46,662 bases of DNA, taken from Actinomortierella ambigua (taxonomy: Eukaryota; Mortierellomycota; Mortierellomycetes; Mortierellales; Mortierellaceae). How positions within the stretch are numbered: the first letter of the stretch is position 1; each line of letters opens with the position of its first letter. The position numbers and the translations under genes were made by a program. Shown here piece by piece: positions 26,734 to 46,662 of the stretch. Below the pieces are notes generated by a model. The model saw only the letters and a program-made list of their open reading frames with translations. It was not told the origin of the DNA and did no database searches. The DNA is taken from contig JAAAJB010000260.1 in the NCBI GenBank assembly GCA_016098155.1, positions 1-46,662 of the forward strand, read 5' to 3'.

Positions 26734-26787
26734 GGAGAAGCGAACGAGCTTGGGTTTGCACCTCCTGCTAATATTTGTGACGAGCAA

Positions 26788-27501
26788 GCTTATGTCCCAT
26801 CCAAAAATTTCTAATTATCGACTCCGTCCAAATCGTTTCACCCCGCACGACGCGCCAGGATCGCAGTCAATAACCCCCCCCCCTTCCCCATGGATAGCAA
26901 CAGTTTGTTGCTATTGCATATGGATTTCTCACTCCAGGTGATCTCTAGAGGCTGTTGGAAGAACTGCGGATGAGGAAGTGGAGCCTGTGGTCAAAAATGG
27001 TATTGGACACATTCACCTTGAGATTGGAGATGGGAGGAGGCTATGTCACTGTACCTGAACCTGCCGAACAGTCCCTTTTTGTCCCGTGGGGACTCCTGTC
27101 GACGATCGAGTCAAGATTCATCGTGGTCGACAACTCGGCTCCAACCCAGGGATTTCCAAACAAAACGGCAGTTTGGCGCAAATGGCAACAGATGCTCGGG
27201 CCACATAAGCGCGGCCTGCCTTGATCACGTTGCTTGCAGTAGGCTAATGTCTCCAAGTTCCGCACCGAGTGCCTTGTGCCTTCCGCATGCCGATTTAGTC
27301 TCACAAAATCCATCTCGTTCGTCCCACAGCGTTTGAACCGCGGGCGCTGACAATAGGTATTGGCCCGTCTACGCAAACGACAATTTATCCAAGACGCCGA
27401 GCCTGAGACCTAAGAAAAGAAAGAAAAGGAGGGAGAAAGTCAATGAAATGATGGCGGACACAAAAAGGATAGATGCCAGATAAAGTACCCATGCAGGAGG
27501 C
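26788..27501. other. Intergenic region at the left edge of the array; possible decayed coding sequence
   Basis: No intact gene. The plus strand between about 26890 and 27230 keeps short protein-like stretches in different frames (for example KNGIGHIHLEIGDGRR and CPVGTPVDDRVKIHRG), which may be a decayed exon. I cannot name a family. A C-rich run lies at about 26874-26887. Confidence 0.3.
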
Positions 27502-28159: not shown

Positions 28160-30449
28160 ATGAACTCCGGAAACACCATTCAAGTAAGCAGAGACCAGCC
28201 GGCACGCTCTGATACTCCCCCGCCACCTCTTTCGCCACGAATACTGACACCTCCTTCTTCACTAGACTGGGCTGGAGATAGGGGAAATCGTCGGTGCTGG
28301 TATGTACGGTGTCGTCTTCCAGGGCCGCTACAACACTCGCAAGGCTGCCATCAAGAAGTTTCGGTTTCAACACACCACATACCAGGTCGAGATCATAGAA
28401 CAAGAGATTGGCTTGCTCAAACGCCTTCAGTACCGCCATATCATTCAGATCTATGGCGTACATCGCCAAGGCAATGAGATCTCTCTTGTCACAGACTTTG
28501 CCGAAGGTGGCAGTCTCAAGCAAGCCATCCAGGATTCAGGCGTCGCTGGTTGGCCTATGAAGAGCCGGATAGCACAGGAGATTGCCTATGGTCTAGCCTA
28601 CATCCATCACGAAGGCATCATCCATCGAGATCTCAGGAGCGATAATGTGCTTCTCACAGGTCTCATGGAGGTCAAGCTCTGTGACTTTGGCCTCGCGGTG
28701 GTCAAGACATCCAGTGGTGGCCATTCGACCGAAGTCATGCGAGGCACAGTCCGATGGATGGCTCCTGAACTGGTTCTCTCAGAGCGACCTCGATACACCA
28801 CCCAGTCGGATATGTACGCGTTTGGAATGGTGATGTGGGAGATGGCAGCCATGTGCACTGTTCCTTTCATAACCATGAGCAGCAACTTGAAGGTGGCACA
28901 GGCTGTCTATAGCGGCCAACGTGAGCAGCTACCAGAAGATACGCCAGCCATCTACCAGCATTGGGTCAATCTATGCTGGAAGCAAGACTCATCCGACCGA
29001 CCAGATGCTCATGACGTGAACATTGTGGATGATACCTCGTCGGCACGTGGAGGTACAAACGCCGCTGGCATCGCGCGGCATGCGATGAACGACAAAGCTC
29101 TTGATCATGACATTATATCTGATGTTTCGCCCTCAAGGTCCTCGGAGACTGAAGAACCAGCTACCAGCCCACTACTGATGGAGTTCGTCAGCCTATATCG
29201 CAGGGCAATGCTCAATGATGTCGATTCGCAAGTGTCTCTTGCAGAGATGTACGAGACTGGTAGTGGTGGTATTCCCAAGGACAACGAAATGGCCTTCACT
29301 TGGTATCTTAAAGCAGCACAGCAAGGCCATCTCAGTGCCATGGATCGTGTTGGTGACATGTATGCCGATGGTCGAGGCACAGAGCAGAGCCACGATGAAG
29401 CAGTCAGGTGGCACAAACAAGTAATGGACCAAAGGAGATCAGTAGTGCAGGCTAGTGCTGGTTTTGCCTTTCAAGAATCTTCGCAAGCAGTAGACCACCA
29501 TTCAGGGGCCATGTCTTGGTTTCGTACAAAATCGCGAGACAGTTTGATAGCCCTGCAGTCCAGCATTCGATTCGCGAAGAACATGCTAGATACAACCCAG
29601 GGCAATTCCAGCGCAACTGCGGGCATTCAGGTCATAGCTAGGGGAGACCCAACTTCACAGTCCGATCCGAGAAGGATGCATGACAATCCCTCTCGAGGCC
29701 CTGAACATAGCGATCTGGAGGTGGTCACATGGTGCTCCAAGGCTGCCAACCATGGGGATCCGAGTGGACAGTTCAACCTCGGCTGGATGTATGAGATGGG
29801 TCGAGGCGTTCAACATAGCGATGTGGAGGCTGTCAAGTGGTACACTAGGGCAGCTAACCAAGGGGATCCGAGGGGGCAGTTCAACCTCGGTTGGATGTAT
29901 GAAATGGGCCGAGGCGTTCAACAAAGCGATGTAGAGGCTGTCAAGTGGTACACTAAAGCGGCTAGACAAGGGAACCAAAATGGACAGATGAACCTTGGAT
30001 TAATGTACTACAACGGCCGAGGAGTCGAACAGAGCGACATCGAGGCAGCCAATTGGTACAACAAGGCGGCCAGTCAAGGGAATCCGGATGGACTGTTCAG
30101 TCTAGGATGGATGTACGAACTTGGCTTCGGCGTTGAAGCAAGTGACAGTCAGGCACTCAATATGTTCCACAAGGCAGCTGACAAGGGAGAGCCTAATTCC
30201 CACTTCCATGTCCAATGGCTGACCTCTCCTGCTCGAAGGATACCAAGAGACAGCTCAGACACTATTGAAGTGCATCGCATGGGAGCCTTGCAAGGATATG
30301 CAGCCGCTCAATACAATCTTGGACGACTATATGAGCGAGGTCGGGGCACTCGCATGAACAAAGAACAGGCACTAGCATGGTACAGGAAGGCCGCAGCACA
30401 AGGTCACGGTGATTCAAAGACGAGTGTAGAGCACCTTCTTAGAACATAA
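28160..30449 (+). CDS. K1: TKL-like protein kinase with C-terminal Sel1 repeats
   Basis: Exons 28160-28183 and 28266-30449 (intron 82 bp, phase 0) give 735 residues. Exon 1 codes only MNSGNTIQ. Kinase domain about 10-275: Gly loop VGAGMYGVV, Lys38 in AAIKKF, Glu in EQEIGLL, HRDLRSDN with catalytic Asp130, DFG at 148-150, and TVRWMAPEL. All key residues are present, so it should be active. The sequence is of the tyrosine-kinase-like type, which phosphorylates Ser/Thr. After a linker comes an early Sel1 pair (SLAEMYETGSGGIPKDNEMA and following), a helical spacer, then one degenerate and four clear 36-residue Sel1 repeats (GVQHSDVEAVKWYTRAA type), and a C-terminal pair ending in EQALAWYRKAAAQGH. 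Sel1 repeats form alpha-solenoids that bind proteins. No signal peptide or membrane segment is seen, so it is presumably cytosolic. Confidence 0.88.
29690..30205 (+). repeat. K1 Sel1 repeat array (108-bp units)
   Basis: One degenerate and four recognisable 108-bp units, each coding a 36-residue Sel1 repeat. Two neighbouring units (about 29755-29970) are nearly identical in DNA. Confidence 0.8.
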
Positions 30450-30890
30450 TGGCTTATTTGTTGGTTAGTGCATTTTCAAAAGCTATTTCTACGGCTCCAT
30501 GATATAAAATATTTGAGGATCATTTTGTAGATTGTTGCGACGCTGGAACTCTTGGACTGCATCTTTCAACAATGGGTACAAGATATTGTCAGAACCTTCC
30601 ACTCAACTTTGAAATCGACGGTGGCTGTGCACTTACTTCTGGGGCTTAAAGACGGAGCTCTAGCGTTGATCTCACCCATTGAAGATTATCATTCAGTATG
30701 TGCAAAAAATGGCAGCATAGCATATTCATTTCCACACATGCTAGACGAGGATAAAGAATGCAGCAATCTCCCAAAAACATTCTTGAAAAGGTATTGGGAG
30801 AATCAACAGCCAATCTCCGTAAGAGATAACTGCGATTCAAATAATCAACGAGAGCTGTAACCACTTCTTTTCGTTTCAATTGCCATCATG
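30450..30890. other. Spacer after K1; flank shared with other array units
   Basis: No gene. From about 30690 to 30890 the sequence resembles 40310-40500 and 44100-44300, that is, the 3' flank of the phosphatase remnants. So the duplicated cassette extends beyond the remnant's stop codon. Confidence 0.5.
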
Positions 30891-31395
30891 CTACTTGTCC
30901 ACGTGCCTGCCTAGCCCCGGACAGCTGCTGCTATGGAATAGTTGGCTTTTGTCCATTATACCTCGGAACAATTCTGACCCAGGGCATGGTGTAAACACTG
31001 GGGTGTCCAGTATGGTGTGGGCCCCAGCGCTTGCAATGACAGGCAGTGTGACCAATTTGTACATGATATTCTGACCTTTGTTAGGATTGGCGACGTGTAC
31101 TTTGTAATGATGATGACTCCCTGTCATCCTCACTACAGGCTGCCGCATGCTATGAGTGTGGACCTGAAACTGAGCGTGGTGAGCCAGTGTCGCCACGATT
31201 CTGGCAGCCAGTGTATGATAAATCGCTACTTTCACTCGTCTGGCAAGCCGTCGCCATCCTTGTCCCCGCATGATGGCCAGCATATGTTCCGATAGCATTG
31301 CGCTCCTGTAGATCCGGACCATCCTCGTTGATGTTTCCCTTCCGATTGCTGAAAAACTCTGTGTTGACGGACCCATAGACATCTACTGTGGCCAT
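30891..31395 (-). pseudogene. Alkaline phosphatase remnant, copy B
   Basis: The minus strand keeps the C-terminal part of the phosphatase in pieces: NTEFFSNRKGNINEDG, then NAIGTYAGHHAG, DKDGDGLPDE, MTGSHHHYKVHVANPNKG, TPVFTPCPGSELFRGIMD and VDK before the stop. These lie in different frames, so there are at least two frameshifts. The N-terminal half with the catalytic Ser and metal ligands is absent. The upper edge ends at the same sequence (ATAGACATC) as the other copies. Confidence 0.6.
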
Positions 31396-31529
31396 CACCA
31401 CACAAACATGCAAAGATCAATTTTGCGACTGAAGGATATGCACAGGCTGCACTACCTCTATTTGTTTCTGAGCACAATAGACAGGTGACCTGAGAAGTGA
31501 GAAATAGCGAATGAGACGTTCGCTGGTCA

Positions 31530-31613
31530 TTAACCTCTCTCATTGACATCTCCTTCAGTGATTCTCATCCGCACACCATCATCTGGACACTTGGCCCACA
31601 TCTCTCTGCAGAA
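31530..31613 (+). promoter_or_regulatory. Conserved kinase leader, K2 copy
   Basis: Shares the CTCTCTCATTG...CTCATCCGCACACCATCATCTGGACACTTGG...CTCTGCAGA pattern with the other five kinase leaders. Confidence 0.5.
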
Positions 31614-33874
31614 TGAACTCCGAAAACACCACACAAGTAAGCAGAGACCAGCCGGCACGCTCCACTTACTCTGCCATCCTCTTCCGCTACGAATACTAAC
31701 ACCTCCTTCTTCACTAGACTAGGCTGGAGATAGGGGAAATCGTCGGTGCTGGTGTGTACGGTGTCGTCTTCCAGGGCCGCTACAACACTCGCAAGGCTGC
31801 CATCAAGAAGTTTCGACTCCATCAACATGCCACAGACCAGGCCAAAATTATCGAACAAGAGATTGGCTTGCTCAGACGCCTTCAACACCGCCATGTCATC
31901 CAGTTCTATGGCGTACATCGTGAAGGCAACGAAATCTCTCTTATCATGGACTTTGCCGAAGGTGGCAGTCTCAAGCAGGCCATCGAGGATTCACGCGTCG
32001 CTGACTGGCGTGTCAAGAGTCGGATTGCACAGGAGATTGCCTATGGTCTCGCCTATATCCATCACGAAGGCATCCTCCATCAAGATCTCAAGAGTGATAA
32101 TGTGCTCCTCACAGGTCTCATGGAGGTCAAGCTCTGCGACTTCGATTTCGCCGTGGTCAAGACATCCAGTGGTGGTTATTCAACCGAAGTGCTGAGAGGC
32201 ACAGTCCGATGGATGGCTCCTGAACTGGTTCTCTCAGAGCGACCTCGATACACCAACAAGTCGGACATGTATGCGTTGGGGATGGTGATGTGGGAGATGG
32301 CAGCCATGTGCACTGTTCCTTTCAAGGCCATGGACAACAGCTATGCCGTGGCGCTGGCTGTTCATGGTGGCAAACGTGAACAGCTACCAGATGAGACGCC
32401 AGCCAACTACCAGCATTGGGTCGAGCTATGTTGGAAGCAAGACCCATTCGACCGACCAGCTGCTCACGATGTGACCATCGTGCAAACTGACATCGTGGAA
32501 GATGTCCCATGGTTGCGTCAGGGTGCTATTACCCCCAGTAGCTTCTGGAGTTCATCGACCGACAGCTTACTGGAGCACGGCATGGTCTCTGAGGTCCCAT
32601 TCCCGGCGTCTTCGGAACCTGAAGAACCAAGAGCCACCCAACCACTTATGACGTTTGTCAGTCTGAGCCGCAAGGCAACGCTCAATGATATCGATGCGCA
32701 AGTGTCTCTTGCAGAGATGTACGAGACTGGCAGTGCTGGTGTCCCAAAGGACAACGAAATGGCATTCGTTTGGTACCTTCGAGCAGCACAGCTAGGCAAT
32801 ATCGGTGCCATGGATCGTATTAGTGACATGTATGCTGAGGGTCGCGGCACAGAGCAGAGCGACAATGAAGCAGCCAGATGGCACAACCAAGCATCGGAGC
32901 AAAGAAAATCGAATCTACGTGGCAATGTTGAGAGCATTCTTACGATGTTAAGAAAAAAGCGACTAGCGGCCATGAAGTCTAGCCTCGGATCCCGGATGCA
33001 TGTGGTAGATACCAACCAGGATGGAGTCAGAGCGGGAGCTGAAATTCAGGCGGCGGAAAGAGGGGACGCAGAAGCCCAGTTCAACCTTGGATTGATGTAC
33101 GAACATGGTCGAGGTGTCGAGCAGAGCGATGTCGAGGCGATCAAGTGGTACACCAAGGCGGCCAATCAAGGGAATTCAAAAGCACAGTTCAACCTTGGAT
33201 TGATGTACAGGAATAGTCGGGGCGTCGGACAGAGCGAAACCGAGGCGATTAAGTGGTACACCAAGGCGGCCAGCCATGGGAATCCAGAGGCACAGTTCAA
33301 AGTTGGATGCATGCACGAGACTGGCCGAGGTGTCGAACAGAGCTATGTCGAGGCAGTCAGGTGGTATACAAAGGCTGCCAGCCAAGGGAACTCAAATGCA
33401 CAGAACAACCTTGGATGTCTGTATGACTTGGGTCAAGGCGTCAAGCAAGACGATATGATGGCTGTGGAATGGTACAAAAAAAGCTCGGCCCAGGGCAATA
33501 CACATGGCCACGGAAATCTTGCGTCGATGTATGAGCTTGGCTTCGGTGTTGAACCAAGTGATGATCTCGCACTCGATTTATTCAACAGGGCCCATGAAAA
33601 AGGGTATCCGATTGCACACTTCCATGTCAAGTGGCTCACCTCGACTGATCGACGTACACCACGCAATGATTCGGATGCTTTTGAGGTGAATCGCATTGGA
33701 GCCGAGAAAGGATATGTGGCAGCCCAGCATAATCTCGGGAGACTCTACGAGCGAGGCCGAGGCGTTCGCATGGATAAGGTCCAAGCGCTTTTATGGTACC
33801 GAAAGGCAGCGGCACAAGGCCACTTTGACTCGCAGCAAAGGATGGAATTCATTCAGAGACAGTACAGAGCTTGA
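31614..33874 (+). CDS. K2: kinase-Sel1 protein with altered HRD and DFG motifs (predicted pseudokinase or weak kinase)
   Basis: Exons 31614-31637 and 31718-33874 (80-bp intron with TACTAAC at 31694-31700) give 726 residues. The Gly loop (VGAGVYGVV), AAIKKF and EQEIGLL are conserved. The catalytic loop reads HQDLKSDN (129-131), keeping Asp but replacing the Arg that normally stabilises the activation loop. The metal-binding motif reads CDFDFAVV (149-151), with Asp replacing the DFG Gly. TVRWMAPEL is intact. Such kinases may be weak or purely scaffolding; this is inference from the motif. The C-terminal part has an early Sel1 pair, a spacer and five 36-residue Sel1 repeats, then the final pair ending VQALLWYRKAAAQGH. 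The frame is intact throughout, which argues against simple decay. Possible AATAAA signals lie at 33925 and 33988. Confidence 0.86.
33067..33610 (+). repeat. K2 Sel1 repeat array (five 108-bp units)
   Basis: Five consecutive 36-codon units beginning with DAEAQFNLGLMYEHGRGVEQ. Unit 5 is the conserved end unit (LASMYELGFGVE) present in every paralog. Confidence 0.8.
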
Positions 33875-34229
33875 TTGGTTCTTAAATTGGTGCTTCTTTG
33901 AACAGCTATTTCCGAGGTGATGCGAATAAATGGGTCGACCGTTGAGCATGTCGATTCAAACGCAGCCACATAGACGGTGGGATACTCAATAAAAGACAAC
34001 CGTGATCCTCGATTCCTTCTCGCAGTTCTGTAGTAAAAAGGACAAAGAAAAATGTGAGGACACGACTTGATAGACTACGAAGACATGCTGAAGCCTTCTG
34101 TGACTTCATATTTTACACAGTTTTTGAGCATTGCTTGTAAATCCAGAGGATCCTCATAAACAATCTTCGTGGAAAGATATCAACAGGCACACATACCATC
34201 TATTTGGGAACACAAGAAAGATTCATTCA
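33875..34229. other. Spacer between K2 and K3
   Basis: The shortest spacer in the array and the only one without a phosphatase remnant. It contains AATAAA at 33925-33930 and 33988-33993 and no gene. Confidence 0.5.
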
Positions 34230-34317
34230 CAGCTCATCAACCATCCCCATTGCAATTCATTCAATTGTCTCATCCTACCACTGTCATCTGGACACTTGAC
34301 TCACACCTCTCTGCAGA
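34230..34317 (+). promoter_or_regulatory. Conserved kinase leader, K3 copy
   Basis: Keeps the CATTCACAGCTCATCAACC start and the CATCTGGACACTTGACTCACACCTCTCTGCAGA end found at the other kinases, written here as separate short motifs with the middle diverged. Confidence 0.45.
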
Positions 34318-37056
34318 ATGGATCCCGGACATACCACTCAAGTAAGCAGATACCGGAGAGTGCCTCCGACAACACCCTCGCCCTCTATCGCCACGGATAC
34401 TATCTAACGCATCTCCCTTCGTTAGGCTGTGTTAGAGATAGGAGAACCCATCGGCGCTGGCATGTACGGTGTCGTCTCCCAGTGCCGCTACAACACCCGG
34501 AAGGTTGCCATCAAGAAGTTTCAGCTCCATCGACATACCACAGACCAGGTCGAGATCATCGAACGGGAGATTGGCTTGCTCACACGACTTCAGCACCGCC
34601 ATATTATCCAGTTCTATGGCGTACATCGTCAAGGCAACGAAATCTCTCTTGTCATGGACTTTGCCGAAGGTGGCAGTCTTAAGGAAGCTATCGAAGATTC
34701 ACGCGTCGGAGACTGGCAAATCAAGAGCCGGATTGCACAGGAGATTGCCTATGGTCTAGCCTACATTCATCACGAAAGCATCCTCCATCGAGATCTCAAG
34801 AGCGACAATGTGCTACTCACAGGGCTCATGGAGGTCAAGCTCAGTGACTTTGGACTCGCCATGGTCAAGACATCCAGTGGCGGCTATTCAACCGAAGTAC
34901 TGAGGGGCACAATCCGATGGCGGGCACCTGAGTTGCTTATGGGAGAGCTACCTCGGTACACCAACAAGTCGGACATGTACGCGTTGGGGATGGTAATGTG
35001 GGAGATGGCAGCGTTGTGCACTCTGCCCTTCAAGACCATTAACAGCAACTTTGTGGTGGCTGGGACTGTTCATGGCGGTGAGCGTGAGAAGCTACCACAC
35101 AACACTCCTCCTGACTACCGGCGTTGGATCGACCTGTGTTGGAAGCAAGACCCGTCCGACCGACCAGATGCTCACGAGGTGATCATTATGGACGATGCCT
35201 TATCGCAGCATCAGCGTGCGTCGACCGAGACCTCACTCGAGCTAGACGCTATATTTGATGATTCGTCGTCGAGATCATCAGAAACTGAGGGGCCGGCCGC
35301 CAGCCAACTACCGATGGAGATCGTCAGCCTGAACCATAGAGCAGTCCTCAATGAAGTCGATGCCCAGGTATCTCTTGCGGAGATGTACGAAACTGGTGGT
35401 GCCATGGATCGTGTTGGCGATATGTATACCGAGGGTCGAGGCTCAGAGCAGAGCCACAATGAAGCAGTCAGGTGGCACAAACAAGCAATGGACCAAAGGA
35501 GATCAGCATCGCAGGCTAGCGCTGGTATTGCCTCTCAAGAAGTTTCGCAGGCAGTGGAACGTATTTTAGGGGCCATGTCTTGGTTTCATACAAAATCGCG
35601 AGACAGTTTAATGGTCATGCAATCCAGTATTCGATCTGCGATGAACGTTCTAGTTATCGCCCAGGGAAGCGCCAGAGCATTCACCAATCTTCAGGCCTTG
35701 ACTAGGGGAGATGAAACTTCTCAGCCTCACCTGGGAAGGATGGAATGTGATATTGCCTCTCGAAGCCCTGAACATAGTGATGTGGAGGTGGTCAGGTGGT
35801 GTGCCAAGGCCGCCAACCAAGGGGATCCGAGTGGACAGGTCAACCTCGGTTGGATGTATGAGATAGGTCGAGGCGTTCAACATAGCGATGTGGAAGCTGT
35901 CAAGTGGTACACCAAAGCAGCTAGTCAAGGGGACCCGAGAGGACAGTTCAACCTTGGATGGATGTACGAGACTGGTCGAGGTGTAAAACAGAGCGATTTC
36001 GAGGCGGTCAAGTGGTACACCAAGGCAGCCATCCAAAGAAATCCAAATGCACAGAACAAACTTGGAGTGATGTGCAATCATGGTCAAGGTATAGAACAGA
36101 GTGATGCCGAGGCGGTCAATTGGTTCATCAAGGCGGCCAGCCAAGGGAATCCAAATGCGCAGTTCAACCTTGGATGCATGTACGAGAATGGTCAAGGGGT
36201 TGAACAGAGCGATGTCGAGGCGGTCAAGTGGTTCAGCAATGCGGCTAGCCAAGGTAATCCAAATGCACAGAATAATCTTGCACTGATGTATGAGACTGGT
36301 CGAGGTGTCGAACAGAGCGATGTCGAGGCGGTCAGGCTGTACACCAAGGCGGCCATCCAAGGCAATGCAAATGCACAGAACAACCTTGCATTGATGTACG
36401 GGAATGGTCGGGGTGTCCTACAGAGCGATGTTGAGGCGGCCAAGTGGTACAGTAAGGCGGCAAGCCAAGGTGATCTAATGGCACAGAAGAGCCTTGGAGC
36501 GATGTACTTGGATGGTCGAGGTGTCGAACAGAGCGATGTTGAGGCGGTCAAGTGGTACACCAAGGCAGCCACTCAAGGGGATTCGAATGCACAGAACAAC
36601 CTTGGATGGATGTATGCCTTGGGTCAAGGTGTCAGGCAAGACGATATATTGGCTGTGGAATGGTACCAAAAAAGCTCTGCCCAGGATAATGCATACGGCC
36701 ACGGAAATCTTGCGTCGATGTATGAACTTGGCTTCGGTGTCAAAGCAAGTGACCTTCACGCACTCGATTTGTTCACCAGGGCCCACAACAAAGGATATCC
36801 GATTGCGCACTTTCATGTCAAGTGGCTCATGTCCTCTGATCGACGGACACCATGCAGTGATTCTGATGCTGTTGAGGTGAATCGCATTGGAGCTGAAAGA
36901 GGATATGTGGCAGCTCAACACAATCTCGGACGGCTCTATGAGCGAGGCAAAGGCGTTCGCAAGGACAGGAGCCAGGCACTTATATGGTACAGGAAGGCCG
37001 CAGAACAAGGCCACACAGACTCACAGCAATGGGTGGAGTTCCTTCAGCGACAATAA
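34318..37056 (+). CDS. K3: TKL-like kinase with the longest Sel1 array
   Basis: Exons 34318-34341 (MDPGHTTQ) and 34426-37056 give 884 residues, the longest paralog. The intron is 84 bp, phase 0. Catalytic motifs are intact: IGAGMYGVV, VAIKKF, EREIGLL, HRDLKSDN (129-131) and DFGLAMV (149-151); the APE region reads TIRWRAPEL. The early Sel1 pair is shortened: YETGG joins directly to AMDRVGDMY, missing about 25 residues present in K1, an in-frame deletion that removes most of one repeat. The main array compensates with nine 36-residue repeats, then the final pair ending SQALIWYRKAAEQGH. The stop codon TAA (37054-37056) lies within AATAAA at 37052-37057. It should be an active kinase with an extended binding solenoid. 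Confidence 0.88.
35760..36790 (+). repeat. K3 Sel1 repeat array (nine 108-bp units after a degenerate one)
   Basis: Nine full units plus one degenerate first unit. Cores of the type GVEQSDVEAVKWYTKAA recur almost unchanged. Compared with K1 (four units), this shows gain or loss of whole units in frame. Confidence 0.82.
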
Positions 37057-37057
37057 A
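37052..37057 (+). terminator. Poly(A) signal overlapping the K3 stop codon
   Basis: CAATAAAAAA: the TAA stop is part of AATAAA. K4 has the same arrangement at 39991-39996. Confidence 0.45.
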
Positions 37058-37144
37058 AAACCTGGTTTGTTTTCAGGTTGGTTCTTTTTTCAAAAGCCGT
37101 CGCTGGAATTCTGTTACGGGATGAGGTGGGAGGTAGGGCCCCCC

Positions 37145-37510
37145 ATCTTGTGCTATGTGACTATTAACCAACATTATCACCATGGCTGTCGATGACAGGC
37201 AGTGTGCCTGATTTGTACGTGTAACATGTACTGATGATGGTTCCTTGTCGTCCTCACCGCAGGCTGCTGTCCACCAGGAGTGTGGACATGGAACCGCGCG
37301 TGGTGGACCGGCGCCAACACCACACAGGCTGTCAATGTGAATCATATATTAAGTCATCTAGAAATTGTCTGCCTTGCTCTCATATAAGGGCCAATCCTGA
37401 GTGAACAAATAATTCGATAGCGTTGTGTTTCTATAGATCTGGAGCATCTTCGCTGATGTTTCCGATCCAGCTGTTGAAGAACTCAGACTGGACCCACAGA
37501 CATTGCTGTG
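37145..37510 (-). pseudogene. Alkaline phosphatase remnant, copy C
   Basis: The plus strand shows GACAGGCAGTGTGCCTGATT, then CCTCACCGCAGGCTGC and a GGAGTGTGGACATGGAACC segment, all matching the complementary strand of copies D and E. It is the most eroded copy, with deletions on both sides and no frame longer than a few dozen codons. Confidence 0.5.
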
Positions 37511-37614
37511 TACATGTCCCAGCAAATAATTTAAGGCCAATTTTGAAATGCTCTCTCGCAACTATTGTTTGTGGTCACAAGAAAGAGGAGGTGACCTAAG
37601 GAGTAGCGAATATA

Positions 37615-37706
37615 CATTCACAGCTCCTCATCCTCTCTCATTGCCCTCTCATTCAGTTTTCTCATCGGCACACCGTCATCTGGACACTTGACTCACTCTC
37701 TGCAGA
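37615..37706 (+). promoter_or_regulatory. Conserved kinase leader, K4 copy
   Basis: Contains the CATTCACAGCTC, CACACCGTCATCTGGACAC and CTCTGCAGA blocks shared with the other paralogs. Confidence 0.5.
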
Positions 37707-39995
37707 ATGAACTTCGGAAACACCAAGCAAGTAAGCATTTACCAACTGGCATGCCCGACCGCCACCAACACCACCCTCCCCCTCTCTCACCACGAATACT
37801 AACACTTCCCTCTCCTATAGGCTGTGTTAGAGATAGGAGAAATAGGAGAACCCATCGGTGCTGGCCAGCACGGTGCCGTCTTCCAGGGCCGCTACAACAA
37901 TTACAAGGTTGCCATCAAGAAGTTTCGGCTTCATCATCACACCACAGACCAGGTCGAGACCATCGAACGGGAGATTGGCTTTCTCAAACGCCTTCAGCAC
38001 CGCCATATTATCCAGTTCTATGGCATACATCGTCAAGGCAATGAAATCTCACTTGTCATGGACTTTGCTGAAGGAGGCAGTCTCAAGCAGGCCATCGAGG
38101 ATTCACGCGTCGCTGGCTGGCATATCAAGAGTCGGATTGCACAGGAGATTGCCTTTGGTCTAGCCTACATCCATCTCGAAAGTATCTTCCATGGCAATCT
38201 CAAGAGCGACAATGTGCTTCTGTCAAGCCACATGGAGGTCAAGCTCTGTGACTTTGGACTCGCAGTTATCAAGACGTCTAGTGGTGGTCATTCGACCGGG
38301 GCCATGCGAGGCACAGCCCGGTGGCTGGCGCCTGGATTGGTTCTCTCAGAGCAACCTCGATGCACCCGAGGCACAGCCCGGTGGTTAGCACCTGAGTTGG
38401 TTCTCTCAGAACGACCTCGATACAGCACCAAGTCGGACATGTACGCATTGGGAATGGTGATGTGGGAGATGGCAGCCATGTGCACGCTCCCCTTCAGGAC
38501 CATAAACAACAACGTTGAAGTAGCGCAGGCTATTTCTCGCGGCCGGCGTGAGCAGCTGCCAGATGCGACACCAGCCATCTACCAGCATTGGGTCGACCTG
38601 TGTTGGAAGCAAGATCCATCCGAACGACCACGTGCTCGCGATGTGTTCATTGTGGAGGATACTTTATCGTTGCATCAGGGTGCTATTACTCGTATCAGCT
38701 TATTGTATGACGACGACGAGCAGTGCGTGGTCCCTGAAGTCTCGTGCTCAGTGTTTTCGATGCCTGAAAAACCAGATCGGCATGGTAGTGCTGACACTAC
38801 TTCTCGAGGTGCTTTGCAAGCGGTAGAGAACGATCCAGGTAACAAGAGCTGGCTTCGTACCACCTCGCAAAAGCGACTAGCGGCCCTGAAGTCTAGCCTC
38901 GGGTCGGTGATGGATTTGCTAGATACCAACCAGGACAGAGTCAGGGCGAGAGCTGAAATTCAGGAGGCGGATAGAGGGGACGCAAGAGCACAGTTCAACG
39001 TTGGATTGATGTACGAGACTGGTCGAGGTGTCAAACAGAGCAATGTCGAGGCGGTCAGGTGGTACATTAAGGCCGCCAGCCAAGAGAATCCAGATGCACA
39101 GTACAACCTCGGAGTGATGTGCAGAAATGGTCGAGGTGTCGAACAGAGTGATGTCGAGGCAGTCAAATGGTTCACAAAGGCGGCTGACCAAGGAAATTCG
39201 GATGCACTGTACTACCTTGGAGTGATGTACGAGAATGGTCAAGGTGTCGAACAGAGCGATATCGAGGCGGCAAAGCGGTACATCATGGCGGCCCACGAAG
39301 GGAATCCAAAAGCACAGTTCAACGTCGGATGCATGTACGAGACTGGTCGATACATCAATCAGAGCGATGTCGAGGCGGTCAAGTGGTACACTAAGGCGGC
39401 CAGCCAAGGGAGTCCAAATGCGCAGTGCAATCTTGGCTTGATGTACGAGACTGGTCGAGGTGTCGACCAGAGTGATGTCGAGGCGGTCAAGTTGTACACC
39501 AAGGCAGCCAGCCAGGGGGATCCAAGTGCACAGAATAACCTTGGATGGATGTATGACTTGGGTCAAGGGGTCGAACAAGACGATATTTTGGCTGTGGAAT
39601 GGTACAAAAAAAGCTCTGCCCAGGGTAATGCACATGGCCACGGAAATCTTGCGTCAATGTATGAACTTGGCTTCGGTGTTGAGGCAAGTGACCATCACGC
39701 ACTCGATTTATTCACTAGGGCTCATGAAAAAGGATATCCGATTGCGCACTTTCATGTCCAGTGGCTCACTTCGCCTGATCGACGTACACCATGCAGTGAT
39801 TCTGATGCTGTTGCTGTGAATCGCATTGGGGCCAAGAGAGGATATGTGGCAGCCCAACACAACCTCGGGCGACTATATGAGCGAGGTCAAGGCGTTCGCA
39901 TGGACAAAGACTTGGCTCTTGTATGGTACAGAAAGGCGGCAGCACAAGGTCACTTCGACTCGCAGCAAAGGATGGGGTTCCTCCAGAGACAATAA
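37707..39995 (+). CDS. K4: predicted pseudokinase with duplicated activation segment and Sel1 repeats
   Basis: Exons 37707-37730 and 37821-39995 (90-bp intron with TACTAAC at 37797-37803) give 732 residues. The Gly loop reads IGAGQHGAV. VAIKKF and DFGLAVI (152-154) are kept, but the catalytic loop is HGNLKSDN (132-134): both the HRD Arg and the catalytic Asp are gone, so phosphotransfer is not expected. A 60-bp tandem duplication (38307-38366 and 38367-38426) doubles the segment from RGTARWLAP to the P+1 region; the first copy reads APG, the second APE. The N-terminus repeats EIGEIGEPIG, a small duplication. There is no early Sel1 pair after the kinase domain; seven 36-residue repeats follow, then the conserved end pair. 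The frame is intact, so the protein is probably made. The stop overlaps AATAAA (39991-39996). Confidence 0.88.
38307..38426 (+). repeat. 60-bp tandem duplication in the K4 activation segment
   Basis: Two adjacent 60-bp copies starting CGAGGCACAGCCCGGTGG, differing at a few positions. Each codes 20 residues spanning the end of the activation loop and the APE motif. No other paralog has it. Confidence 0.95.
38985..39740 (+). repeat. K4 Sel1 repeat array (seven 108-bp units)
   Basis: Seven 36-codon units from DARAQFNVGLMYETGRGV to the end unit LASMYELGFGVE. One unit has lost the usual RGV turn (ETGRYINQSD). Confidence 0.8.
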
Positions 39996-40484
39996 AGAGC
40001 CTGTTTTGTTCCTGGGTGGTTATTTCTTTCAACAGCTGTTTCTGAGGCTTTGCTTCGCGTGTAGATGGGAGGTGGAACCCCTCATGGTGTGTTCTAAAGA
40101 CCAATGCAACAATGAACACCATCATAGTGCGTTACTCTAAAATGTGTACTGGAAGTTGCCAAGCCTTAGACTCTTTGAGCTGAGAGGTGGTGATTTACGC
40201 ACTTGATCTGTTGATCCTGAATGAAGAAGAGGCTCTACCGATGCCCATTTTCACATCATTCAATGCCTTCAAAACAAGCGAAGACAAACAACAATGCTCG
40301 GCCATGTCGTATTCATTAGAGACCTGCTGGAAGTCAAGAGTGATAGCTTTTAAGGAGGCAGCAAGTTCTCAGTGAGCAATGCTGGAAAAGGTATCGGGAG
40401 TGCCAGCGTCTTATTAATCTCTGGAGGAGAGAACTGTGACTCCAACGTTCAATGGGTACTGACCAGTCATGCTCGCCACGGATG
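39996..40484. other. Spacer after K4
   Basis: No gene. From about 40310 it resembles 44100-44300 and 30690-30890, the common 3' flank of the phosphatase remnants. Confidence 0.5.
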
Positions 40485-41010
40485 TGTACCACACTACCCA
40501 CCCACCTGTACGCCTGTCCCAGGACAGCTGCGATGTTGTGGAATACTTGAGTGTTGTCCATCACACCTCGGAACAGTTCTGACCCAGGGCCTTGCGTAAA
40601 CACGGGTACGTCCTGCATGGAGTGAACACCAACGCTTTCGCTGACAGGCAGTGTGCCTGACTTGTACATGCCATCCTGATCTTCGTTCGGGTTGGGGACG
40701 TGTACCGTGTACTGATGATGGCTCCCTGTCATCTCCACTGCAGGCTGCCGCCTGCCATGAATGTGGACCTGGAACTGCTCATGATGAGCCGGTGCCGATA
40801 CCACTCCGGCAGCCAATGTAAATCGCACCTTCCACTCGTCTGGAAAGCCGTCGCCATCTCTGTCCTCATACGAAGGCCATCCCGAATGACCATATGTTCC
40901 GATAGCGTTGCGCTTTTGCAGATCCATACAATCGTCGTTGACGTTTCCGTTCCAACTGTTGCAAAACTCGGTGTCGACTGATGGCGGATCCCTAGACATC
41001 AACTGCATTG
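40485..41010 (-). pseudogene. Alkaline phosphatase remnant, copy D (best preserved)
   Basis: One open minus-strand frame keeps about 170 residues of the phosphatase C-terminus: SVDTEFCNSWNGNVND, KRNAIGTYGHSGWPS, the Asp-rich loop EDRDGDGFPDEW, FTLAAGVVSAPAHHEQFQVH, MTGSHHQYTVHVPNPNED, then SMQDVPVFTQGPGSELFRGV and NTQVFHNIAAVLG. The DVPVF..GPGSELFRG block is characteristic of the alkaline phosphatase C-terminus; the residue pair normally HTGED or HSGED here reads HSMQD. A small deletion shifts the last codons out of frame. The N-terminal catalytic half is missing, so no enzyme can be made. Confidence 0.65.
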
Positions 41011-41114
41011 CTGTGTGACAAGTTACCATGCAAAATATACAAGATAAATTTTGCACTGAAGTACATGCTCGGCTGCAATGCTCTCATCTATTTGTTTGTG
41101 AACACAAGAAATAT

Positions 41115-41212
41115 GTAAATTCACATCTCATCAGCCTCTCTCATTGTAATCTCATTCATTTGTCTCATCCGCACACCGTCATCTGAACACTTGGCCTACA
41201 TCTCTCTGCGGA
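41115..41212 (+). promoter_or_regulatory. Conserved kinase leader, K5 copy
   Basis: Almost identical to the K6 leader at 44890-44984 (CTCATCCGCACACCGTC, ATCTGAACACTTGGCC, CATCTCTCTGCGGA), which marks K5 and K6 as the youngest pair. Confidence 0.55.
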
Positions 41213-43792
41213 ATGAACTCTGAAAACTCCACACAAGTAAGTATATACCGGCCGACAAGCTCGTCTGCCCCTAATACCACCCCCCCCCATCTTTCGCCAG
41301 AATACTAACACATCGCTCTTCTCCACGCTGTGTTAGAGATAGGAAAACTCATCGGTACTGGTGCGTACGGTGCCGTCTTCAAGGGCCGCTACAACACGCG
41401 CAAGGCTGCCATCAAGAGGTTTCAGCTCCATCAACACAACACAGACGAGGTCGAGACCATCGAGCATGAGATTGGCTTGCTCAAACGCCTCCAGTACCGC
41501 CATGTCATCCAGTTCTATGGCGTACATCGTCAAGGCAACGAGATTTCACTAGTTATGGACTTTGCTGAAGGAGGCAGTCTAAAGCAGGCCATCGAGGACT
41601 CACGCGTCGCTGGCTGGCATATCAAGAGTCGGATCGCACAGGAGATTGCCTATGGTCCAGCCTACATCCATCACGAAGGAATCCTCCATCGAGATCTCAA
41701 GAGCGACAATGTGCTTCTGTCAAGCCACATGGAAGTCAAGCTTTGTGACTTTGGACTCGCCGTGGTCAAGACATCCAATAGTGGTCATTCGACTGAAGTC
41801 ATGCGAGGCACAGTCCGATGGCTGGCTCCTGAGCTGGTTGCCTCAGAGCGACCTCGATACACCACCAAGTCGGACATGTACGCGTTGGGGATGGTGATGT
41901 GGGAGATGGCAGCCATGTGCACTGTTCCTTTCAAGGCCATGACCAACAACCTTGTAATGGCAAAAGCTGTTCACGGCGGCCAACGTGAGAAGCTACCCGA
42001 AAAGACACCGGCTATCTACCAGCATTGGGTCGATCTGTGTTGGAAGCATGACCCATCCGACCGACCAGATGCTCACGAGGTGAGCATCGTGGACGATGCC
42101 TTATCGGGACTTGACAGTGCGAACACTGGCACATTATGGTGCACGTTGACCAACACATATGAGGAACGGATAGTCCCTGAGGTTCCGCCCTTGGTGACTT
42201 CAACGCCTGCGAAAACGTCAGCCATCCCGCCACTAATGAGGTTCATCAGCCTGAGCCGCAAGGCGGTGCTCAACGACGCGGATGCACAAGTGTCTCTTGC
42301 AGAGATGTACGAGATTGGCGGTAGTGGTGTCCCAAAGGACAACGAAAAGGCCTTCGTTTGGTACCTTCGAGCAGCACAACTAGGCCATCTCGATGCTATG
42401 GGTCGTGTAAGTGGCATGTATGCCGAAGGTCGAGGCACTGAGCAGAGCGACGAGGACGCAGCCAGGTGGCAACATCAAGCAACGGACCAAAGACGATCGA
42501 ATCTCGCGTCGGTATCGGTAGAGGAAGATTCACGTGACAAAAGTTGGTTTCGTACGACCTCGCGAAAGCAACTAGCGGGCATGAAGTCTAGCCTCGGATC
42601 CGTGATTAATGTGCTGGATACCAACCAGGACATAGTCAAGGCGCAGGCCGAAAGAGGGGGCGCAAGGGCACAGTTTATCGTTGGGTCGATGTACGAACAG
42701 GGTCGAGGTGTCGAACAGAGCGATGTAGAGGCTGTCAAATGGTACACCAAGGCGGCAGGCCAGGGGAATCCGCAAGCACAGAATAACCTTGGAAGAATGT
42801 ACTTGGATGGTCGAGGTGTCGAACAGAGCGATGTAGAGGCTGTCAAATGGTACACCAAGGCGGCAAGCCAGGGGAATCCGCAAGCACAGGATAGCCTTGG
42901 AAGCATGTACAGACTGGGTCGAGGTGTCGAACAGAGAGATGTCGAGGTGGTCAAGTGGTACACCAAGGCGGCCAGCCAAGGGAGTCCAAATGCACAGAAC
43001 AACCTTGGAACGATGTACGCGAATGGTCGAGGTGTCGAACAGAGCGATGTCGAGGCGGTCAAGTGGTACACCAAGGCGGCCAGCCAAGGGTATCCAGATG
43101 CACAGTTCAACCTTGGATGGATGTATGAGACTGGTCGAGGTGTCGAACAGAGCGATGTCGAAGCGGTCACGTGGTACACCAAGGCGGCCATCCAAGGGAA
43201 TCGAAATGCACAGAATAACCTTGGAAGCATGTACCGACAGGGTCGAGGTGTCGAACAGAGCGATGAAGAGGCGGTCAAGTGGTACACCAAGGCAGCCAAC
43301 CAAGGGAATCCATCTGGGTAGTGCAATCTTGGATGGATGTATGACTTGGGTCAAGGGGTCGAACAAGACGATATATCGGCTGTGGAATGGTGCAAAAAAA
43401 GCTCTGCCCAGGGTAATGCATAAGGCCATGGAAACCTTGCTTCGATGTATAAACTTGGTTTCGGTGTTGTGACGAGTGATGATCATGCACTCGATTTATT
43501 CATCAGGGTCCGCGACAAAGGATATCCAAGTGCACACTTCCATGTGAAGTGGCTAACATCGCCTGATCGACGGACCCCATGCAGTGACTCGGATGCTGTT
43601 GAGGTGAATCGCATTGGAGCCGAGAAAGGGTATGTGGGATCTCAGCACAATCTCGGGCGACTGTATGAGGGAGGCCGAGGCGTTCGCCTGGACAAGATCC
43701 AAGCGCCTGCATGGTACAGGCAGGCTGCTGCCCAAGGCCACCTCGACTCGCAGCAAAGGATGGAGTTCCTTCAGAGACATTTAGTAGCTTGA
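41213..43792 (+). pseudogene. K5: kinase-Sel1 pseudogene (lost splice acceptor, two in-frame stops)
   Basis: Exon 1 would be 41213-41236 and exon 2 41327-43792. The acceptor dinucleotide before GCTGTGTTAGAG is AC (41325-41326), where all five paralogs have AG; the branch site TACTAAC (41303-41309) remains. The nearest upstream AG (41299-41300) leads to a stop after 11 codons. Within exon 2 a TAG (43319-43321) replaces a CAG codon in a Sel1 repeat, and a TAA (43421-43423) replaces a CAC codon; downstream the original frame continues to the expected end. The kinase motifs (IGTGAYGAV, AAIKRF, HRDLKSDN, DFGLAVV) are intact, but the normally conserved GLAYIHH reads GPAYIHH. The breaks are few, so inactivation is recent. 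A truncated product from an alternative start cannot be excluded. An early Sel1 pair, six repeats before the first stop, and two after it remain. Confidence 0.87.
42655..43515 (+). repeat. K5 Sel1 repeat array (eight 108-bp units)
   Basis: Six units before the TAG and two after it. Neighbouring units share long identical stretches, for example the two starting near 42700 and 42810, which points to very recent unit duplication or gene conversion. Confidence 0.85.
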
Positions 43793-44289
43793 TTGGGTCT
43801 CGAATTGATGCTGTTTTCAACAGCTGTTTCTTAGCTTTGGCACTTTGGCAGGATGTGGCGTCCAATATCTTGTGTGCTGTAGACTATTGTGACAATGGAC
43901 ACCATCGGAGCGCATCGTCCTCAAATGTTTGCAGGAAATTATCCATGCCTTTGACACAAATTTCGAGTTTGAGAGGTGTTGGTTTACGCAGCTTGTTTTG
44001 TTTCTCTCGAGTGAATAAGGAGCTCTACTGGCACCAAATCTTACCCACATCATGGCATCATTCAATATCTGCAAATAATCAAACAAAAACGTTGACCAAG
44101 TCGTATTCATGAGAGACTTGTTCTGTGGCAAGAGTGCGGGCTAATAAGGAGGCAGCAAACTCTCGGTGAACAATGCTGAACAAGGTATTGAGAGTGCCAA
44201 CCACTGAGTGATCTGTGGAAGAGAGAACTATGACTCTAGCATTCAATGAGCGCTGGCCAGTCACCCACATCATAGCTGTAACCATCCTA
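43793..44289. other. Spacer after K5
   Basis: No gene. About 43930-44289 resembles 40150-40484 and, partly, 30600-30890; it is the shared flank of the duplicated cassette. Confidence 0.5.
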
Positions 44290-44810
44290 CTTGTCCACCT
44301 GCTCGCCTAGTCCCAGGACAGCTGCGATATTATGGAATACTTGAGTATTGTCCATCACACCTCGGAACAGCTCTGACCCAGGGCCTTACGTAAACACGCG
44401 GACGTCCTGCATGGAGTGAACACCAACGCTTTTGCTGACAGGCAGTGTGCCTGACTTGTACATGCCATCCTAATCTTCGTTTGGGTTGGGGACGTGTACC
44501 GTGTACTGGTGATGGCTCCCTGTCATCCCCACCGCAGGCTGCCGCGTGCCATGAGTGTGGACCTGGAGCTGTTCATGATGAGCTGGTGCCGATACCACTC
44601 CAGCAGCCAATGTGAACCGCACCTATCACTTGTCTGGAAAGCCGTTGCAATCCTTGTCCTCATACGATGGCCATCCCGAGCGAGCATATGTTCTGATAGC
44701 ATTGCGCTTCTACAGATCCATACCATCCTCGTTAGCGTTTGTTTCCGTTTCAACTGTTAAAAAACTTGGTGTCGACCGTCAGCGGATCCATAGACATCAA
44801 ATGCATTGCT
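44290..44810 (-). pseudogene. Alkaline phosphatase remnant, copy E
   Basis: Retains the true C-terminus: ELFRGVMDNTQVFHNIAAVL followed by GLGEQVDK and a TAG stop at the lower edge. Two in-frame stops (in the VPNPNED-DGMYK region near 44470 and before GPGSELF near 44390) and a frameshift further upstream break it. The upper edge joins the kinase leader at the same sequence as in copies B and D. Confidence 0.62.
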
Positions 44811-44889
44811 GTGTGACGTTATCAGGTAAAATATACAGCATCCTTGGGCTGCAATGCTCTCATCTATTTGTTTGTGAACACCAGATGTG

Positions 44890-44984
44890 TATTCACAGCT
44901 CATCAGCCTCTCTCATTGCAATCTCATTCATTTGTCTCATCCGCACACCGTCATCTGAACACTTGGCCTACATCTCTCTGCGGA
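44890..44984 (+). promoter_or_regulatory. Conserved kinase leader, K6 copy
   Basis: Nearly identical to the K5 leader, including the CTGCGGAATG context of the start codon, where K1-K4 have CTGCAGAATG. Confidence 0.55.
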
Positions 44985-46662
44985 ATGAACTCTGAAAATT
45001 CCACACAAGTAAGTATATACCGGCCGACAAGCTCGTCTGCCCGGATACCGCCCCCTCTTTCGCCAGAATACTAACACACCCTTCTTCTCCAGGCTGTGCT
45101 AGAGATAAGAAAACTCATCGGCACTGGTGCGTACGGTGCCGTCTTCAAGGGCCGCTACAACACTCGCAAGGCTGCTATCAAGAGGTTTCAGCTCCATCAA
45201 AACAATACAGACCAGATCGAGACCATCGAGCATGAAATTGGCTTGCTCAAACGCCTCCAGTACCGCCATATCATCCAGTTCTATGGCGTACATCGTCAAG
45301 GCAACGAGATTTCTCTAGTCATGGACTTTGCCGAAGGTGGCAGTCTCAGGCAAGCCATCGAGGATTCACGCGTGGCCGGCTGGCATATCAAGAGTCGGAT
45401 TGCACAGGAGATTGCCTATGGTCTAGCCTACATCCATCACGAAGGCATCCTCCATCGAGATCTCAAGAGCGACAATGTGCTTCTCTCAAGCCACATGGAA
45501 GTCAAGCTCTGTGACTTTGGACTCGCGGTGGTCAAGACATCCAGTAGTGGTCATTCGACCGACGTCATGCGAGGCACATTCCGATGGATGGCTCCTGAAC
45601 TGGTTCTCTCAGAGCGACCACGATACACCACCAAGTCGGACATGTACGCGTTGGGAATGGTGATGTGGGAAATGGCAACCATGTGCACTGTTCCTTTCAA
45701 GGCCATGGCTAATAACTATGTAGTGGCGAAGGTTGTTCATGGCGGCCAACGTGAGCAGCTACCCGAAAAGATACCAGCTATCTACCAGCATTGGGTCGAT
45801 CTGTGTTGGAAGCAAGACCCATCCGACCGACCAGATGCTCACGAGGTCATCATCGTCGACGATGCCTCATCGGTACTTGACGGTACGAACACTGCTGGCA
45901 CATTATGGTGCACGTTGACCGATAGCACACACGAGCAAAGCATGGTCCCTGGGGTATCACCCATGGTAACTTCAGCGTTCGCGGAAGCGAGAGCCACCCA
46001 ACCACTAACGGAGTTCGTCAGTCTGAGCCGCAAGGCGGTGCTCAACGATGCTGATGCACAACTGTCTCTTGCGAAGATGTACGAGATTGGCGGTAGTGGT
46101 GTCCCAAAGGACAACGAAAAGGCCTTCGTTTGGTACCTTCGAGCAGCACAACTAGGCAATCTCGACGCCATGGATCGTGTTAGTGGCATGTATGCCGAAG
46201 GTCGCGGCACTGAGCAGAGCGACAAGGAAGCAGTCAGGTGGCAAAATCAAGCAACGGACCGAAGACGATCACATCTGCACGGTGGTGCTGATACTGCTTC
46301 TCACGGCGCGTCGCAGTCGGTAGAGAGTGATCCAGGTGACAAGAGTTGGTTTCGTACGAAGTCACGAACGCGACTAGCGGCCGTGAAGTCTAGCCTCGGA
46401 TCGGTGTTGAATGTGCTAGATACCAACCAGGACAGAGTCAGGGCGAGAGCTGAAATTGAGGCAGCAGAAAGAGGGGACGCAAGAGCACAGTGTAGCGTTG
46501 GATTGATGTATTTGGATGGTCGAGGTGTCAAACAGAGCGATGACGAGGCGGTCAAGTGGTTCACCAAGGCGGCCATCCAAGGGAATCCAAATGCACAGTG
46601 CGGCCTTGGAGCGATGTACCAGAATGGTCGAGGTGTCGAACAGAACGATGCTGAAGCGGTCA
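44985..46662 (+). CDS. K6: TKL-like kinase with Sel1 repeats, cut by the window end
   Basis: Exons 44985-45008 (MNSENSTQ) and 45093 to beyond 46662; 84-bp phase-0 intron with TACTAAC at 45069-45075 and a normal CCAG acceptor. About 531 codons are visible and open. Kinase motifs are intact: IGTGAYGAV, AAIKRF, EHEIGLL, HRDLKSDN, DFGLAVV; the APE region reads TFRWMAPEL, with Phe where the others have Val, Ile or Ala. An early Sel1 pair (SLAKMYEIGGSGVPKDNEKA), a helical spacer and the first two units of the main Sel1 array follow before the sequence ends. It is the closest relative of K5 and appears to be its functional sister. The total repeat number and the 3' end are unknown. Confidence 0.85.

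Follow-up and report, generated by a model that had tools for sequence, protein, structure and literature searches.

A head-to-tail array of kinase-Sel1 genes in Actinomortierella ambigua: diversifying selection in a variable Sel1 core and a possible role in recognition

Kinases of the PF07714 type and Sel1 repeats both occur in very large families in Rhizophagus irregularis, where passages of PMC8647823 and PMC6123716 describe high-copy genes that make up accessory sets specific to individual strains, for which a part in perception is proposed. In fungal NOD-like receptors (NLRs), for example the HNWD family of Podospora, the WD, ANK and TPR repeats with high internal conservation (HIC) vary in number and consist of near-identical units, and the selected TPR positions together with most of the selected ANK positions are located on the concave side (passages of PMC4986451). 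Here we describe an array of six paralogous genes (K1-K6) in Actinomortierella ambigua, a fungus of the Mortierellomycotina, which encode tyrosine kinase-like (TKL) kinases joined to Sel1 repeats. The array spans positions 28160-46662 on the forward strand of the window, which is an entire contig (C180, 46,662 bases) of assembly DFQ27 (33.8 Mb in 846 contigs; locus tags DFQ27_). Six is the gene count up to the contig end, where K6 is cut, and both K6 and the array may extend further. A few positions in the variable core of the Sel1 repeats were found to be under diversifying selection. We consider a recognition repertoire to be the best explanation because a kinase is joined to a diversifying groove and the family differs between close isolates, and we rate it somewhat above an even chance that these genes encode intracellular TKL-kinase receptors with a diversifying Sel1 groove, a kinase output and an isolate-variable repertoire.

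The array resembles the R. irregularis genes, as seen in the passages cited above, in its very large kinase and Sel1 families and in its strain-specific sets. It differs in belonging to the Mortierellomycotina, in carrying both domains in one chain and in its head-to-tail arrangement, and diversifying selection on a Sel1 groove is not mentioned in the passages on R. irregularis. In all of K1-K6 the kinase (PF07714) and the Sel1 repeats (PF08238) score above the Pfam cut-off in a single chain. The likeness to the HIC repeats lies in a varying number of units, seen here between paralogues, in the small number of positively selected positions and in their assignment to the concave face, which is made here from published Sel1 structures. 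However, a Pfam scan of K1-K6 at an E-value of 0.001 gave no NACHT, NB-ARC or AAA/STAND nucleotide-binding domain; the repeat is Sel1, the partner domain is a kinase, and core units within a gene have a mean identity of about 68%, compared with the at least 85% over at least 100 residues of the HIC rule (Dyrka 2014). By analogy, the array genes would work like NLRs without being NLRs themselves. The MLKL-like Sel1 proteins of Glomeromycotina, as described in parts of PMC8778642, also join a kinase-like domain to Sel1 repeats in an early-diverging fungus. In the array proteins, in contrast, the kinase profile starts at residue 9-11, so that a killing domain of membrane-permeabilising helices would not fit at the N-terminus, and five of the six copies retain the catalytic residues. 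No signal or membrane domain was found in the general Pfam scan of K1-K6, for which no dedicated predictor was run, and just eight residues stand ahead of exon 2. The LRR-ROCO and NB-ARC-TPR genes of brown algae, which are candidates for immune receptors, likewise combine a repeat with a signalling domain, and in LRR-ROCO the selected sites are on the concave face, but their repeats arise by exon shuffling (passages of PMC11378527), whereas the kinase and the Sel1 repeats of the array genes share one exon.

A total of 42 Sel1 units were found in K1-K6. With the N-terminal units and the C-terminal units after the core excluded, 25 complete core units are left, all on the forward strand: three in K1 (29766-30089), three in K2 (33074-33397), seven in K3 (35833-36588), five in K4 (38988-39527), six in K5 (42668-43315) and one in K6 (46485-46662), where a second unit is cut and the number is thus at least two. 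These differences in repeat number are seen between paralogues in one assembly. The most variable unit positions were 3, 7, 10, 11 and 36, followed by 31. None of these five was among the consensus positions that the unit-finding patterns required to be constant. A held-out set of 37 core units from 15 other loci of the clade (41 before duplicates and units without Ser-18 were removed) gave a variability profile that closely follows that of the K1-K6 core (Spearman rho 0.86).

The five positions were picked on K1-K6 and then tested on the held-out loci. There, the ratio of nonsynonymous to synonymous rates (dN/dS) was 1.78 at the five positions (gene bootstrap 1.40-2.26) compared with 0.23 in the rest of the unit. 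Site models were compared with our own implementation of M1a and M2a, and M1a was rejected in the held-out loci (twice the log-likelihood difference 55.2, p ~1e-12), in K1-K6 (8.3, p=0.016) and in both together (85.8, p 2e-19). It was also rejected at p<1e-5 in three of three draws that used one random unit from each of 21 genes. In the joint run the posterior exceeded 0.5 at sites 3, 7, 10, 35 (0.99) and 36. In the kinase domain the site model gave no significant signal (p=0.67 for K1-K6; p=0.051 for 24 genes, with one site). The last two Sel1 units served as a control, taken by alignment as 19 rows of which several are partial or overlapping and one is of core type. In these units the five positions had a dN/dS of 0.13 in K1-K5, 0.28 at other loci and 0.21 over all 19 rows, similar to the 0.15-0.30 of the remaining positions. 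Therefore, the signal in the core is not a general property of these Sel1 positions.

Several observations weigh against the receptor reading. The K1-K6 core alone gave a dN/dS of 1.54 with a bootstrap interval of 0.85-2.80, which includes 1. Site support was uneven: position 11 was at or below 0.5 in the joint run though it was found in both separate runs, and two positions outside the five exceed 0.5, namely 35 in the joint run and 13 in the held-out run only (0.88). The ratio was weaker, 1.27, among close independent pairs (n=17). The unit right after the core (four copies) had 0.41 at the five positions and 0.17 elsewhere, and one N-terminal unit (three copies) had 0.60 and 0.24; since these flanking units also differ more at the five positions, constraint is demonstrated for the last two units only. 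Positions of helix 1, the first helix of the unit, were also more variable in other Mortierellaceae proteins, with a ratio of hypervariable to other positions of 1.36-1.60, and the single scorable non-kinase Sel1 protein gave 1.49. A lower conservation of the concave face of Sel1 proteins is likewise noted in part of PMC3851747. Furthermore, the nearest neighbour of a unit was in the same gene for 15 of 62 units against a shuffle mean of 3.1, and recombination between units can inflate site models.

Some of these observations would be expected if the array were in neutral turnover, with duplicates drifting, gene conversion shuffling the repeats and the variable positions forming an unconstrained surface. 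The generic variability of helix 1, the two flanking units, the resemblance of units within a gene, the decay of K5 (described below) and a K1-K6 bootstrap interval that touches 1 all fit such turnover. It does not account well for the constraint that the five positions show in the last two Sel1 units of these genes (0.13-0.28) or for a held-out ratio of 1.78 whose lower bound stays at 1.40, and M1a, which permits neutral sites, was rejected. We regard neutral turnover as quite improbable.

The AlphaFold2 model of K3, built from 45 sequences, had a mean predicted local distance difference test (pLDDT) score of 78, about 98 in the core, and a predicted template modelling (pTM) score of 0.53, at which the orientation of the kinase relative to the Sel1 repeats is not resolved. 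The core, which is followed by C-terminal Sel1 units, was modelled as helix pairs, in which unit positions -1 to 11 make up helix 1 and positions 19-31 helix 2. All five hypervariable positions are located in helix 1, where position 36 corresponds to position 0 of the next unit. On an ideal helix they fall inside an arc of 100 degrees, and only 8 of 1287 choices are equally tight. According to passages of PMC3851747 and PMC10868440, the concave face of Sel1 proteins with solved structures consists of helix 1, and the five positions are thus predicted to face the Sel1 groove, a placement that comes from these published structures. The best Foldseek matches of the K3 model were Sel1 proteins, followed by tyrosine and RAF-type kinases; the sequence search also placed plant CTR1 among the kinase matches.

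In a tree of 160 kinase-domain tips, K1-K6 fall in a clade of 19 tips from 16 distinct genes, all from DFQ27 (support 0.82, with some weak inner nodes). Relatives in assembly DFQ26 were sought with the kinase domain of K1 (best 120 of 178 matches) and with K3 (best 120 of 853). Among the matches listed, the nearest DFQ26 relatives of K1-K6 were 68-75% identical in the kinase domain and none belonged to the clade; this absence rests on annotated proteins of 399-1270 residues among those matches, which counts against reading it as isolate variation. Of 19 K-like DFQ27 proteins, 18 had a best DFQ26 match of 69-76%, or 44% in the case of K4 with its insertion-split domain; the remaining one, P0128, reached 88%. 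By comparison, three other DFQ27 kinases match DFQ26 at 98-99%, and 11 of 67 DFQ27 domains have a DFQ26 partner of at least 85% in a set biased to K-like proteins. The sister clade of the K1-K6 group has DFQ26 members (P0024, P0060, P0087 and P0110) at 85-92% in the kinase domain, so the gap lies with the K clade. Conversely, P0038 of DFQ26 is without a close counterpart in the DFQ27 genome, which gave 68% over most of the protein and at most 83% in the kinase part. P0060 was also considered as a DFQ26 kinase absent from DFQ27 and was rejected, as its kinase part is 92.5% identical despite 77% over its length. Compared with the sister-clade loci L028 and L063 on contig C808 of DFQ27, P0060 shows about 92% in the kinase and about 78% over the aligned length, with the divergence mostly in the linker and Sel1 parts.

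Kinase domains of K1-K6 diverge from one another by 8-26%, far above 1-2%, and most of the duplications should therefore predate the split of these isolates. It follows that the absence from DFQ26 would mean loss, or a region that is unassembled or unannotated. Gene number appears to differ between the isolates within the limits of draft annotations. The sequence-only reading had proposed birth-and-death evolution, and this proposal gains support from a clade that is entirely DFQ27 and whose nearest DFQ26 relatives stand at 68-75% compared with 98-99% elsewhere.

The selection on the groove and the structural data would fit as well if, in ordinary signalling, the groove served to pick the substrates or scaffold partners specific to each kinase, with diversification as a division of labour among duplicates rather than as recognition of non-self. 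In eEF2 kinase, Sel1-like C-terminal repeats bind the substrate. Purifying selection on the kinase domain, with a pairwise dN/dS of 0.18-0.37 among K1-K6, is in line with this explanation. A clade that is found in one assembly and was not seen in a close one is hard to square with fixed housekeeping wiring, however, and a dN/dS above 1 when 21 genes contribute a single unit each suggests a moving target. We consider substrate selection unlikely.

All six copies were found as the sequence-only reading had described them: head-to-tail paralogues with an eight-codon exon 1, a phase-0 intron, a kinase and Sel1 repeats. A strict pattern recovered the same exon 1 and intron layout at 17 of 24 additional kinase loci in the DFQ27 genome. 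Successive kinase copies are spaced 3455, 2708, 3404, 3497 and 3766 bases apart. A kinase segment of 300 nucleotides has 86-88% identity between K1 and each of the other five copies, which puts the array far beyond chance. K1 (28160-30449) consists of exon 1 at 28160-28183, which encodes MNSGNTIQ, and exon 2 at 28266-30449, and it is intact with 735 residues and the motifs HRDLR and DFG; no public protein equal to K1 was seen among the matches listed. K3 (34318-37056; exon 1 34318-34341, exon 2 34426-37056; 884 residues) has intact HRD and DFG motifs, as does K6 (44985-46662; exon 1 44985-45008, exon 2 from 45093), which reaches the contig end inside its Sel1 core. K2 and K3 are identical to the public protein records DFQ27_003736 (P0011) and DFQ27_003737 (P0001) respectively. 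Open frames were found in K1, K2, K3 and K4.

The beta-3 Lys, HRD Asp and DFG Asp are kept in K1, K2, K3, K5 and K6 and not in K4. The three copies that had been credited with all catalytic motifs (K1, K3 and K6) do keep the three residues. K4 (37707-39995; exon 1 37707-37730, exon 2 37821-39995) has an open frame of 732 residues in which HRD is changed to HGN (38190-38198), and its activation segment contains tandem copies of 60 nucleotides (38307-38426; 51 of 60 identical), with APG in copy 1 and APE in copy 2. The public model of K4 (P0030, 642 residues) departs from this frame near the end, and the frame is open to 39995. Judged from its residues, K4 is a predicted pseudokinase and the sole copy in the array with a clear loss of a catalytic residue. 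K2 (31613-33874; exon 1 31613-31636, exon 2 31718-33874; 726 residues) has HQD at 32078-32086 and DFD at 32138-32146. DFD was unique to K2 among 136 scored related domains, and a residue other than Arg in the HRD motif occurred in 19 of the 136. K2 as a pseudokinase was rejected as unproven, since Lys and both Asp residues are kept. Two altered copies in intact frames had been proposed, and of these K4 stands as a predicted pseudokinase and K2 is not a clear one.

K5 (41213-43792; exon 1 41213-41236) is a damaged copy with a changed acceptor (AC at 41325-41326) and the stops TAG (43319-43321) and TAA (43421-43423). Both stops are in one frame, there is no frameshift and the kinase residues are retained. 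The NCBI annotation gives K5 as a protein of 668 residues (P0029), using an acceptor 12 nucleotides further downstream. The terminal branch of K5 had a dN/dS of 0.16, which is not significantly different from other tips (p=0.13).

The catalytic background was taken from 138 kinase-domain rows of 120 related proteins (best 120 of 853), the window proteins included, and in 15 of the 138 rows, K4 among them, at least one of the Lys, HRD Asp and DFG Asp residues is missing. A single pseudokinase among six genes is ordinary against this background, and an enrichment in the array was rejected. Over the genome the pattern HxNLKxxN had 10 matches and HxDLKxxN had 284, with four each for the backward-pattern controls; these patterns miss genes that are altered in other ways, including K1 (HRDLR). 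On the terminal branch of K4 the kinase domain had 42.5 nonsynonymous and 27.5 synonymous changes (dN/dS about 0.44). With its intact frame this indicates that K4 was under constraint during at least some of its past; relaxed selection was not significant against other tips (Fisher p=0.11).

The constraint on K4 would suit a module of live kinases and pseudokinases in which K2 or K4 regulates its array neighbours. Kinase-pseudokinase layouts are known from Janus kinases and cereal tandem kinases. Two kinase domains were also found in 25 of 185 related proteins, with a second domain that is degenerate by a rough pattern in 9 of the 25; the pattern is noisy (36 of 177 domains) and was not used as a rate. 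These relatives include P0109, P0119, P0125, P0118, P0014 and P0051, with degenerate motifs such as HRN/GFT, DFA and HQN/NFG. A two-kinase form of 783-794 residues recurs in DFQ27, DFQ26 and A. wolfii and is thus probably not a fusion of gene models. Within the array, however, K2 retains its catalytic residues and the frequency of one in six is close to the background of 15 in 138 rows, which makes such a module very improbable. The theme of live kinases paired with pseudokinases, which the sequence-only reading had raised, is therefore weak: K4 alone qualifies and is not significantly relaxed.

The segment upstream of K6 (44560-44984, forward strand) had 28 matches on 9 contigs. Similar DNA was found at full length 5' of K2 and K5 and in pieces 5' of K1, K3 and K4. 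As this DNA recurs 5' of other copies and on other contigs, the upstream regions were duplicated along with the genes. A first look at the DFQ27 genome gave 489 TKL candidates, of which 147 were scored, and 13 other contigs carry kinase domains that share 66% identity or more with that of K6. The array is therefore one of several such loci. Contig C794 (11,270 bases; loci L011, L040 and L043) carries a second upstream segment as well as the closest relative of K5 and K6, which is 90% identical to K6, and this contig may be the continuation of the array past the contig end.

Pfam matches of the array neighbours include a mitochondrial-type EF-Tu (8489-9508, reverse strand), alpha-actinin-like CH-domain and EF-hand exons (12455-14899) and an ABC transporter exon (20484-22856). 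An open reading frame with no Pfam match adjoins the array (26089-26814, reverse strand). Rfam and tRNA scans gave nothing, and the NCBIfam matches of three scanned proteins were all under the cut-off. Identity of this EF-Tu is 99% and 91% to two other A. ambigua records and 90% to that of A. wolfii. In BGZ73, the kinase nearest to K1-K6 (P0043) and an A. ambigua EF-Tu (P0199) are both on contigs of 184,228 bases; this is possibly synteny, since in DFQ27 the array lies on the same contig as EF-Tu. The species name of BGZ73 may be wrong, given that its EF-Tu is 91% identical to that of DFQ27 compared with 90% for A. wolfii.

Taken as one locus of a large, isolate-variable repertoire of intracellular receptor-like TKL kinases, the array might function as follows. 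The C-terminal Sel1 superhelix would act as the sensor, with a core of variable unit number offering a groove that is lined by helix 1 of each unit. Diversification at positions 36, 3, 7, 10 and 11 would give each paralogue a different partner, and the constant last Sel1 units together with the N-terminal kinase would pass the signal on. Duplication would carry the upstream DNA along, repeats would be gained or lost, and genes would decay, as K5 has done, or lose catalysis, as predicted for K4. Ligand binding in the groove, a kinase output and a part in the recognition of non-self, or of microbes and viruses, would follow from this arrangement. The recognition role that the sequence-only reading had suggested is thereby favoured indirectly, through a diversifying selection in the Sel1 core, with the last two units as control, that it had not noticed. 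We suggest only tentatively, as a possibility that falls short of even, that the family is a counterpart of NLR repertoires in the Mortierellomycotina for recognising microbes, viruses or non-self, one that is intracellular, kinase-based and without a nucleotide-binding domain, with a selected Sel1 groove, turnover between isolates and a few catalytically dead members as decoys or regulators.

Kinase and Sel1 expansions of early-diverging fungi are reported without a tested mechanism in the literature found. None of the titles, abstract openings and passages of the open PubMed Central papers found describes the Sel1 repeats of a fungal kinase as positively selected, and the selection signature of the Sel1 core seems to be new as far as these searches reach. 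Selection on the groove in the core and not in the last two units points to a concrete and testable function, which is ligand binding. If this is true, fungi of this phylum would possess a recognition repertoire in which kinases take the place of NLRs, and the positions at which it can be tested are defined.

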